Below, one piece after another: positions 27,075-60,985 of a stretch of 64,000 nt of DNA. Position numbers and translations under genes: made by a program. Location: NCBI GenBank assembly GCA_013200995.1, contig CP053688.1, forward strand, positions 1,116,001 through 1,180,000. The letters are read 5' to 3'. Origin of the DNA: Arthrobacter citreus (GTDB taxonomy: Bacteria > Bacillota > Bacilli > Bacillales > Bacillaceae_G). Each line of letters begins with the position of its first letter. Within the stretch, counting starts at the first letter, position 1. The notes under the pieces were generated by a model. That model was not told where the DNA came from. It worked only from the letters and a program-made list of their open reading frames with translations, and ran no database searches.

Positions 27075-27410
27075 CAAAAAAACGCACGAGAATAATCTAT
27101 AAGGGACCATTCTCGGCGTTACCACCCTAATTACTATATAGATCTATACGAAAATAAGCTGATGATAAACAAAAAACGCCATGAATGATCAAAAGGGACC
27201 ATTCATGGCGTTACCACCCTACTTATTATGTAATAACTCTACATAATCTCTTAACATCTTTAACGGGAAAACCGCTGTAGCCTACTATTAGTTCGGTACA
27301 GAGACTCCAAGGCTGGTTTCAGTTTACTCACTTAGGAATTTGCACCAACCATTCCCTCTCTAAAAAGCTTATAAACTTACTATTCCTTTTCTAAGTCATT
27401 TATTAATTTA
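27075..27410 (-). promoter_or_regulatory. T-box riboswitch of proS with tandem antiterminator/terminator units
   Basis: Read on the minus strand, a stem I region (about 27405-27270) is followed by the conserved T-box AGGGTGGTAACGC (27208-27220) and a terminator with loop and T run (27172-27211). After about 45 unrelated bases a second AGGGTGGTAACGC (27115-27127) and a second terminator with the same layout (27076-27118) follow. No second stem I is seen. The bulge TGGT pairs with an ACCA tRNA end, fitting tRNA-Pro with discriminator A. CCN triplets occur near the 3' side of stem I (GAAACCAGCCTTGG), but the exact specifier is not resolved. Confidence 0.9.
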
Positions 27411-58259: not shown

Positions 58260-59284
58260 TTATGCCAGAGCTAATGTTCGTAAGCCTTCAGCTAGAATGT
58301 TTTTACTGGCATTTATGTCTTTATCGTGATGTTCATGACAAATAGGACAGGTCCAACTTCTGATTTCAAGAGGTTTCTTGCCACTTTGGTTCCCACAATC
58401 GGAACAAATTTGACTGGATGGAAACCATTTACTTACTTTTATGATTGTTTTACCGTACCATGTAGCTTTGTATTCTAATTTCGTTACAAAAGCAGACCAT
58501 GATACATAAGAAATTGACCTGGCTAATTTATGATTACGTAACATTCCTTTCGTATTCAGGTTTTCGATACAGATAATATCGTGGTTTTTGATAATTTCTG
58601 TATTCAACTTGTTAAGAAAATCGTCTCGTTGATTCATTACTCTTTCGTGTAATCTAGCAATTTTTCGTTTTTGTTTCTGATAGTTTTTTGCATCAAGAAG
58701 GTTAAACCCATTTTTTTTAGCTATTAACGCACGTCTTGAAAGTTTTCGCTGTTCGCGTTTTAGTTTCTTTCCCATTTTGGAAGTGAATTTATTGTTATCA
58801 ATTTTGCGACCGTCAGAAAAAATTGCAAAATCAGTGTTGCCTAAGTCTATACCAATAGATGATTCAGTTTTCTTCAGTGATTGTACTTCTACTTCTACAA
58901 GAATGGATACAAAGTATTTACCACTTGGGTTTCGTCTAACGGTAGCATTAAGAATCCGTCCATCCACTTCACGACTTTTGGCAAAGCGAACAAGACCAAG
59001 TTTGGGCAATTTTATCTTGTTACCTACAATGGCAATATTTTCATTTGTATGCTTAGTTGTATAGGATTGTACATTGTTCTTTTTGGACTTGAAACATGGA
59101 GCATGATTTTGCTTGTTGAAAAAACGACTAAACTCTTCAGCAAGATTTTTGAGGGAGGACTGCAAGGATATGCTGTCCACTTCGTTCAGCCAGACTAGTT
59201 CTTTTTTTAGTTGCGTCAGCTCGGCAGAGCAAGTATTGTAAGTTAATCCTTGACCAGTTTCCTTGTATGCATCGTTCCATTTAG
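58260..59284 (-). pseudogene. tnpB: tnpB, 3' part (RuvC and zinc-finger domains)
   Basis: C-terminal 340 codons of a TnpB RNA-guided nuclease, the presumed ancestor family of Cas12. The RuvC-like catalytic residues are present: Asp in GIDLGNTDFAIFSDG, Glu in ICIENLNTKGM, Asp in HDKDINASKN; the zinc ribbon is CSDCGNQS and CPICHEH. The open frame runs on to 59342, but TnpB homology starts at KWNDAYKETGQGL (59282), exactly where the IS110 element begins. The upstream 20 codons are encoded by the inserted element. The N-terminal part is at 60868-60985 beyond the insertion, so no full protein can be made. Confidence 0.9.
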
Positions 59285-59329
59285 CCACCCATGCAGCGCG
59301 AGCGCTGCACCACAGCGAATGAAAAAGAT

Positions 59330-59500
59330 TTAAAACCGTCAATACTGCTTCTATGGCTGGGTGAGGAAGGTCGATGAACTATGGTGCCTTTAGAGCCCAA
59401 CATTTAGTCTGACTCCAACGATCACGGTGCATCACAGACTGTCGCTCCCTTGCGGGAAGCACTCATGGTAGATTAATCCTATTCTGATTATTGCACCAGC
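59330..59500 (+). ncRNA. candidate bridge RNA in the IS110 leader
   Basis: IS110-group elements encode a structured bridge RNA in the non-coding DNA upstream of the transposase. Here the leader contains CATTTAGT (59401-59408), identical to the reconstructed target (CATTTAG at 59278-59284 plus T at 60868), and TCATGGTAG (59463-59471), identical to the right end of the element (60859-60867). They sit where a target-binding and a donor-binding loop would be, separated by a hairpin CTCCC-TTGC-GGGAAG (59444-59459). The right-hand guides were not found by eye. RNA ends are estimates. Confidence 0.65.
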
Positions 59501-59525
59501 CTCCATTTTTAAAGCCATAGGAAGG

Positions 59526-60752
59526 ATGAATTCAATGGAAGTTATCATTGAACGAGTTTGCGGAATGGATGTTCACAAGGACAACATTACTGCCTGTATT
59601 ATGACACCAGAAGGAAAGGAGATTCAAACGTTTTCAACGAAAACGATATTTTTAATAAAATTGATGGATTGGATAAAATTGCATGGATGTACTCATGTCG
59701 CAATGGAAAGTACAGGTGTGTATTGGAAACCCATTGTTAATTTAGTTGAAGCTGAAGATTTAGAGGTTTTTGTCGTGAATGCACAACATATGAAAGCTGT
59801 TCCTGGACGAAAAACTGACGTAAAAGATGCGGAATGGATCGCCCAACTTCTCCGTCACGGGTTACTAACAGCCAGCTTCATTCCCGATCGAGAACAACGA
59901 GAATTAAGAGAACTAGTTCGGTATCGTAGAAGTATAATTGAAGAACGATCTCGACAACTTAATAGAATTCAAAAAGTACTGGAAGGTGCAAATATTAAAC
60001 TAGGCTCTGTTGTTTCAGATATCATGGGTGTTTCAGCTAAAGAAATGCTTTACGCTATTGCAGATGGCGAAGAAGATCCTACGAAACTAGCAAGTATGGC
60101 TCGTCGCTCATTGAAACGCAAAAAAGATGAACTTGAACTCGCTCTACGAGGGTATGTTAATCCTCATCAACGTATGATGCTGAAAACAATATTAACTCAC
60201 ATTGATTTTCTAACTGAACAAATTGAAAAACTCGATTCAGAAGTAACACAGAGAGTAAGTTCTTATCAAGAAGACATAGAACGACTGGACTCAATCCCTG
60301 GTATCGCTACACGTATGGCTGAACAGATTCTAGCCGAAATTGGAACAAATCTAGAGAACCAATTTGGAAGTGCACCCCGATTATGTTCCTGGGCAGCATT
60401 AGTTCCTGGACATAATGAAAGCGCTGGTAAAAGGAAATCAACTAAATCAAAAAAAGGCAACAAGTATTTAAAAGCAGCCTTAACTGAAGCCGCACATTCA
60501 GTAGGTGCATCCAAAAACTACCTTGGAGCAATGTATCGGAGAACAGCAGCACGAAAAGGTAGGAAAAGAGCTGGAATAGTAGTAGCACATGCCATGTTAA
60601 GAATAGCCTATTATCTTCTGACTAGAAAAGAAATGTACAGAGACTTAGGAGAAGATTATTATGACAAACAAAAAGAAGTATCAATGGTCCGTTATTCAGT
60701 TCGAAGACTTGAAAAATTAGGGTATTCTGTATCGATCGAAGAAGTCTCTTAA
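59526..60752 (+). CDS. IS110-family transposase (DEDD recombinase)
   Basis: A 408-residue transposase. The N-terminal RuvC-like DEDD domain has Asp in CGMDVHKD (about 14), Glu in AMESTGVYWKP (about 60) and Asp residues in GRKTDVKDAEWIAQL (about 98-101). A coiled middle region (about 125-245) leads to the Transposase_20 domain (DSIPGIATRMAEQILAEIG, about 257-275), with the catalytic Ser expected in PGHNESAGKRKS (about 298). Full length, no frameshift. ATG with GGAAGGATG upstream. Its leader carries the candidate bridge RNA. Confidence 0.93.
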   Translation: MNSMEVIIERVCGMDVHKDNITACIMTPEGKEIQTFSTKTIFLIKLMDWIKLHGCTHVAMESTGVYWKPIVNLVEAEDLEVFVVNAQHMKAVPGRKTDVKDAEWIAQLLRHGLLTASFIPDREQRELRELVRYRRSIIEERSRQLNRIQKVLEGANIKLGSVVSDIMGVSAKEMLYAIADGEEDPTKLASMARRSLKRKKDELELALRGYVNPHQRMMLKTILTHIDFLTEQIEKLDSEVTQRVSSYQEDIERLDSIPGIATRMAEQILAEIGTNLENQFGSAPRLCSWAALVPGHNESAGKRKSTKSKKGNKYLKAALTEAAHSVGASKNYLGAMYRRTAARKGRKRAGIVVAHAMLRIAYYLLTRKEMYRDLGEDYYDKQKEVSMVRYSVRRLEKLGYSVSIEEVS

Positions 60753-60867
60753 TCCATCTACCACTAATATATTTTTTACTCTTGGACGCTTTTTAAAAAT
60801 TAAATAAAGCCGTCTTCTTTAGTTATGCACTTTTTTACCTGAATACCGTAAGGTTTTTTCATGGTAG

Positions 60868-60985
60868 TTAAAAAAAGGTTGAAAACAAATCGAGAACAGC
60901 CAATAGTCTTTGCAATTAAGGTTTCTTGTTCCTTATTAGGATAGATCCGAAACTTATAGGCTTTGTTTATCACCACTGTTCTCAC
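60868..60985 (-). pseudogene. tnpB: tnpB, 5' part
   Basis: N-terminal 39 codons of TnpB: VINKAYKFRIYPNKEQETLI then GCSRFVFNLFL, a classic TnpB start (OrfB_IS605 helix-turn-helix region). The frame then runs into IS110 right-end sequence (TTMKKPYG...) and stops at 60800. GAGGTGA lies before GTG codons at 60976 and 60973, so the true start is one of those and not the first GTG at 60985. Together with 58260-59284 it would give a TnpB of about 377-380 residues, normal for the family. Confidence 0.9.

Follow-up and report, generated by a model that had tools for sequence, protein, structure and literature searches.

The window, i.e. the whole stretch of 64,000 nucleotides that was analysed, carries an IS110-family element inserted between two parts of another gene. 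The element, its ends and its immediate flanks, all given on the plus strand, are as follows:

59277-59284, plus strand: left target flank and core, CCATTTAG, common to a second copy elsewhere; core TAG at 59282-59284
59285-60867, plus strand: IS110-family element, with left end CCACCCATG... and right end ...TTTTTTCATGGTAG, the ends being as in its relatives
59289-59293, plus strand: CCATG, left arm of a subterminal inverted repeat that is short in this element (5 bp)
59526-60752, plus strand: transposase of 408 aa, with DEDD_Tnp_IS110 and Transposase_20 domains
60859-60867, plus strand: left donor sequence TCATGGTAG, with core TAG at 60865-60867
60868-60873, plus strand: right target flank TTAAAA

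The transposase matches PF01548 (DEDD RuvC-like, 1.9e-40) and PF02371 (Transposase_20, 6.7e-18), and reaches 279.7 bits against NF033542, for a cut-off of 140. Its start codon may be ATG 59535, which is better spaced from the ribosome site than ATG 59526. The trinucleotide TAG is present on both sides of the element, the left junction reading CCATTTAG followed by CCACCCATG, and the right one TTTTTTCATGGTAG followed by TTAAAAAAAGG.

The gene disrupted in the window (58260-59284 and right of 60868) is an IS200/IS605-type tnpB, coding for an RNA-guided nuclease, the left part of which matches NF038281 only from profile position 33; one RNA-guided system would thus be nested within another. No second tnpB copy was found in the same genome. 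As for the element itself, a second copy (G000:C1:3732681-3734263, minus strand) is identical to window positions 59277-60869 and interrupts a PTS EIIC/EIIB gene, the two parts of which match PF02378 positions 1-220 and 219-319; a glycosyl hydrolase family 4 gene (L005:408-1745, minus strand) adjoins it. Both copies have CCATTTAG on their left and TT on their right. Among nine tnpB-flank loci of the same genus, eight are uninterrupted, with a spacing that fits one core copy belonging to the target (the ninth, L094, aligned too poorly), while the single homologue of the second target (L151, 87%) runs uninterrupted through a single TAG. Since uninterrupted homologues exist for both targets, one core copy belongs to the target, and both insertions are precise, without target duplication, at the shared core.

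The 240-base leader upstream of the transposase gene (59286-59525) was compared among relatives. The best 80 of the 534 relatives confirmed by a scan of genome contigs, together with the two copies of the genome itself, gave 82 loci; the upstream sequence sufficed in 77 of these, and in 71 both ends of the element could be read. These 71, own copies included, constitute group A; left out were L053, L057, L013, L018 and L074 (no right end) and L069 (no core). Group B originates from 151 genomes drawn from the class, 19 of which matched at 1e-60, the own genome among them: 19 loci were read and six dropped as too distant or incomplete (L129, L130, L131, L132, L133 and L137). The 13 remaining loci, 53-61% identical in protein, have AC or AT as their first two bases behind the core; their RNA follows the same plan but bears different guides. 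As the tree does not unite them in one well-supported clade, the neutral word "group" is used. With L103, a 69% relative from a plasmid, the total is 85 loci. L154, L155 and L156 coincide with L007, L008 and L009 and were counted once. The distant relatives L098, L099, L131 and L133 (42-44% identity), in some of which a left guide and a left donor guide are seemingly visible by eye, stand outside all counts. Concerning the randomisations, row shuffles leave relatedness in, and group shuffles over distinct guides lessen it without abolishing it.

Within the leader, the following features were delimited:

59319-59346, plus strand: possible promoter, weak; ATGAAA (59319-59324), 16 bases, AATACT (59341-59346)
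59351-59520, plus strand: predicted bridge RNA, with putative exact ends; closing stem P1, 59351-59357 with 59514-59520
59369-59423, plus strand: predicted target-binding arm; stem 59369-59373 with 59419-59423, apical stem 59382-59384 and 59386-59387 with 59395-59399
59375-59380, plus strand: right target guide (RTG) TGAACT, complementary to core AG and the right target; 59381 pairs with the first core base
59401-59407, plus strand: left target guide (LTG) CATTTAG
59408-59409, plus strand: handshake-like extension of the LTG, TC, fitting the first two bases of the element
59426-59497, plus strand: predicted donor-binding arm, a multi-loop; P3, 59426-59431 with 59492-59497, and hairpins P4 (59444-59460) and P5 (59475-59489)
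59463-59471, plus strand: left donor guide (LDG) TCATGGTAG, identical to the last nine bases of the element

A first-pass annotation had reported that the leader matches both target and donor, with a low probability of chance identity. Both matches are present, each once in the 240 bases: the 8-mer CATTTAGT (59401-59408) arises in 64 of 20000 letter shuffles of the leader and the 9-mer TCATGGTAG (59463-59471) in 13 of 20000, so that the low chance holds as well. Stronger evidence than such single-match figures comes from covariation among the relatives.

At the target side, CATTTAG equals the left target plus the core. When the left flanks of the 71 elements were compared with the whole leader, the best identity lay at 59400-59407 (z 14.2), the next reaching 4.4, and flank positions -6 to -2 equal leader positions 59401-59405 in 97-100% of group A. 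The LTG could be parsed in 80 of the 85 loci, 74 of which were usable, the exceptions being L060, where a deletion shortens the guide, and the incompletely parsed L123, L127, L142, L147 and L128 (by eye, 7, 6, 5, 6 and 7 of 7 letters fit, respectively); the five loci that were not parsed (L058, L055, L054, L052 and L029) fit by eye. All seven letters are equal in 65 of the 74 loci (62 of 66 in group A with L103, 3 of 8 in group B), and the lesser fits have six letters in seven loci, five in one and four in one (L124). The 17 distinct LTGs agree with their own flanks at 6.56 of 7 letters, vs. 4.04 when dealt anew (0/5000); without the core letters, the figures are 4.56 of 5 vs. 2.03 (0/5000). 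Guides and targets thus covary among relatives, which supports the earlier proposal of a candidate bridge RNA with a natural target-donor pair.

Comparing close copies with their own flanks had been suggested as a check. Five copies have the CATTTAG guide, two identical ones in the own genome (the window and the second copy) and three in relatives (L007, L008 and L157); they occupy unrelated loci, but each lies in CCATTTAG. The first-pass annotation would have been contradicted by copies keeping this loop at unrelated targets, a pattern that these five do not show. L167 has the same flank, its contig ending before the guide, and L009, with CAGTTAG in its leader, is inserted in CCAGTTAG. In all five CATTTAG copies, the same bases precede the element, much as they would if they were part of it. 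This would suit an explanation in which the matches are leftovers of shared ancestry or gene conversion between ends and leader, with the transposase recognising the DNA itself. Such an explanation is very improbable, given that one core copy belongs to the target, as the uninterrupted homologues indicate, and that 17 guide versions change with their flanks, in loops of a conserved RNA fold. In L060, the LTG lacks four bases (CATC and AGT on either side of the gap), yet the insertion lies in the usual CCCGTTAG target; this guide was perhaps lost after insertion.

The match had originally been claimed as an 8-mer. Its first seven letters do covary with the target, whereas the T at 59408 belongs to a two-base extension that fits the element. 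Group A has TC directly behind the LTG and elements whose first bases are CC or TC; in group B, these two bases are AC or AT, and so, in the same loci, are the first two of the element. Over 77 loci (8 of the 85 were not parsed), extension position +2 equals the element in 77 cases and the right target in four, while position +1, the T at 59408 in the window, equals the element exactly in 21, or in all 77 when U.G wobble is counted, and the next base of the right target in 62. The extension is invariant within group A, so few independent events lie behind this match.

The right guides had been missed by eye. An RTG is now located at 59375-59380; a right donor guide was not found (see below). 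The best complement of the right flank over leader positions 59286-59525 is 59373-59378 (z 7.3; z 7.9 at the same offset in another scan), the runner-up being 59472-59477, with z 4.0 and 53% observed vs. 52% shuffled. Over 79 loci with 27 distinct guides, RTG pairing (wobble counted as half, best of three offsets) averages 4.84 of 7 vs. 3.70 when dealt anew (0/2000); shuffled within groups, the observed value was reached in 0/5000 for group A with L103 (66 loci, 17 guides) and in 21/5000 for group B (13 loci, 10 guides). The adjoining position 59381 can pair with the first base of the core in 57 of the 58 loci that were parsed, as A opposite T in 54 of them and as G opposite C in three. By eye, the leaders of L076 and L080 carry AGACTCCT, the exact complement of core AG plus the right target GAGTCT. 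The window RTG pairs with its own right flank at core AG, TT and +4, with a mismatch at +3, and fits both own targets only partly (core, TT and +4, with a mismatch or wobble at +3). Poor fits were found in L009, L062, L123 and L124. The right flank of L062 holds, by eye, the apparent end of another IS110 transposase, so this copy may be recombinant.

The RTG therefore lies 5' of the LTG (59375-59380 vs. 59401-59407), which is the order of the IS1111 group and not the order with the LTG 5' of the RTG. A bridge RNA laid out as in IS621, with the true RTG 3' of the LTG and the 5' match incidental, would agree with the LTG-first order given for IS621 and ISEc21 in the available text of PMC11208158 and PMC11187229, and with the partial fit of the window RTG. 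We consider it very unlikely, since the 5' complement exceeds its runner-up in z score, was not equalled in the shuffles between distinct guides, and is exact in L076 and L080.

At the donor side, the right end of the 71 elements equals leader positions 59464-59471 (z 11.2). The LDG is readable in 83 of 85 loci, in eleven versions, and covaries with the right end: CATGGTAG, CATGGGAG, CATAGTAG, CAAGATAG, CGGGATAG and CGGGGTAG are always found with an identical right end, while one-base departures concern TATGGTAG (3), AATAGTAG (2), TAGGATAG (3), CAGGGTAG (one case of three, L122) and CAGGATAG (one of five, namely L126, in which two right-end-like sequences adjoin and the script picked the second). 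As for a right donor guide, no convincing complement of the left end was found across the whole leader, and left ends vary little. The best candidate (59507-59512, z 4.6) was rejected, with 30% matched vs. 25% shuffled. So was GGAAGGTC (59365-59372), which by eye resembles a left-end complement in group B: its GGTCG pairs in the target-arm stem, and its letters fail to track the left end from element to element.

The leaders share a conserved fold. RNAalifold, applied to 36 aligned leaders of both groups, returned six helices, to whose energy covariation contributes little (-1.74 of -30.56 kcal/mol); apart from edge pairs, they are those drawn by hand beforehand from the alignment, although the drawing was made after seeing a narrower fold of 64 leaders. 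In these helices, 97.0% of 1188 cells are paired, vs. 27.8-52.0% after displacing the partners by one to three columns, and two-sided changes occur in 36 cells vs. 6.4 shuffled, mostly in P1. The first-pass annotation had named, as a result that would speak against it, a fold in which the guide segments are fully paired. None of the folds, whether from 36 leaders, 64 leaders or single sequences, shows this. The 36-leader consensus leaves RTG, LTG and LDG unpaired; in that of the 64 less diverse leaders, 59373-59375 and 59378-59379 pair with the left-guide side and part of the LDG pairs with downstream bases, and single-sequence folds differ again. Rfam has no match within the leader. The loose promoter pattern recurs in 60 of 72 leaders, a count without control, and a promoter scan listed no site in the leader.

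Through its 3' arm (59514-59520), stem P1 overlaps AGGAAGG (59519-59525), the likely ribosome site of the transposase gene, and the predicted folding of the RNA could limit transposase translation. The same overlap would suit a leader that is merely a structured 5' untranslated region regulating the transposase, with the guide matches as by-products. Regulation alone, though, fails to predict loop letters that track the insertion site on both sides as well as the right end, and we regard this explanation as scarcely credible; regulatory and bridge-RNA roles could exist together.

Taken from sequence comparison, the reading of the leader as a bridge RNA is strongly supported, and we assign a probability of roughly 0.92 to a bridge RNA that guides the DEDD transposase, with recombination at the (T)AG core. 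The leader would encode an RNA of about 170 nt; bound to it, the transposase would recombine the donor circle and the target at the shared core, giving a precise insertion without target duplication. For transcription, transposase binding, the circular intermediate and strand exchange, we infer these steps from the published work on IS621 and seekRNAs. Counting against the bridge-RNA reading are the missing right donor guide, the partial fit of the window RTG, the ill-fitting relatives, the pairing of parts of the guides in the narrower and single-sequence folds, the relatedness left in the shuffles and the negative Rfam result.

The first-pass annotation had likened the leader to IS621-type bridge RNAs. 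As in IS621, to the extent that PMC11208160 and PMC11208158 describe it in their available parts, the RNA lies at the left end, upstream of the recombinase, with the target arm before the donor arm; LTG and LDG match the top strand letter for letter, the core forms part of the guides, and insertion takes place at the shared core. The identity of the left guides thus stands, but the layout differs: the target loop of IS621 runs stem, LTG, stem loop, RTG (PMC11208158, available text), whereas here it runs RTG, stem loop, LTG. Also unlike IS621, as described there, are the multi-loop donor arm, the core (TAG vs. CT) and the lack of a right donor guide among the features found here. The LTG extension resembles the handshake pairing outlined for IS621 (same text of PMC11208158), but is on the left guide here. 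The 408 aa transposase is about 26% identical to the IS621 chain in aligned stretches. Donor-binding bases within a multi-loop are mentioned for many IS1111 orthologues in the part of PMC11208160 available.

Concerning the IS1111 side, the accessible portion of PMC11187229 provides the comparison. According to it, the tested IS1111-type seekRNAs carry the match to the top strand ahead (5') of that to the bottom strand, and ISEc21 has the two the other way round. As in ISEc11, ISPa11 and ISKpn4, the top-strand complement (RTG) is here 5' of the bottom-strand match (LTG), and a subterminal inverted repeat is present with 3 bp outside on the right. Unlike in these three, where the RNAs lie downstream of the transposase gene, the RNA here lies upstream. 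According to the same portion, IS1111 transposases have 330-350 aa, a length that the 408 aa here exceed, and inverted repeats of usually 11-13 bp (group range 7-17 bp), vs. 5 bp in the window. By eye, the repeat has 7 bp in relatives such as L024 (CCATGAA/TTCATGG); the extensions outside it are 3 bp on the right and, if the left core copy is counted, 7 bp on the left. With the IS110-type ISEc21 seekRNA, as presented in PMC11187229, the element shares an upstream non-coding region, guides that address the two target strands, insertion that is precise and leaves no duplication, and natural redirection by guide changes (ISMch6). Guide order sets them apart, the bottom-strand match standing on the 5' side in ISEc21 and on the 3' side here.

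As a whole, the domains are those of the IS110 family and the RNA position is the upstream one of the IS110 group, not the downstream one of IS1111; a tree with IS4321 and IS621 gave no IS110/IS1111 placement, its branches being long. Judging from its putative guides, the element combines the IS110 position with the IS1111 guide order. On balance, we favour the view that guide order and RNA position are separable, in a mosaic lineage having transposases of 404-411 aa, an upstream RNA with IS1111 order, a multi-loop donor arm and an LTG that reads past the core into the left end. If this is true, recombinases with this fold would be able to handle both topologies of the target loop. In the available text of PMC11187229, guide order is tied to group, IS1111 one way and the tested IS110-type element the other; a lineage with IS110 position and IS1111 order would break this rule, bear on the divergence of IS110 and IS1111, and change how guides are searched for across the rest of the family. 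Among openly accessible titles and abstract openings, no further description of IS110 guide order was found; an earlier account may exist in figures, preprints or subscription papers. Together with the matching targets, the 17 versions of the left guide and 27 of the right one form a natural set, useful for programmability tests in a new recombinase lineage with a TAG core.

Many group A relatives (L007-L086) occupy similar sites, approximately AACTAANGCNCCCGTTAG followed by TTNAA, several of which continue with TTTAAGTNNAA...TTCACAAA. Their flanks often hold short open frames only, no shared target gene was found from them, and the sites perhaps represent a dispersed extragenic repeat. Many of these sites, like AACTAANGCNCCCGTTAGTT, are partly palindromic; a palindromic target was rejected, as pairing between the two flanks of a site does not exceed that of shuffled flanks (17 of 63 sites score at least 8, vs. 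24% of shuffles).

Apart from full copies, a relic of the element was found in the own genome at C1:156044-156280, and same-genus genomes hold short matches to its first 41 bases (e.g. G001:C41:134692-134732 and G009:C14:16022-16062), which may be either relics or small derivatives. Elsewhere in the window, a T-box leader (27191-27402, minus strand) is the only Rfam match at gathering score.
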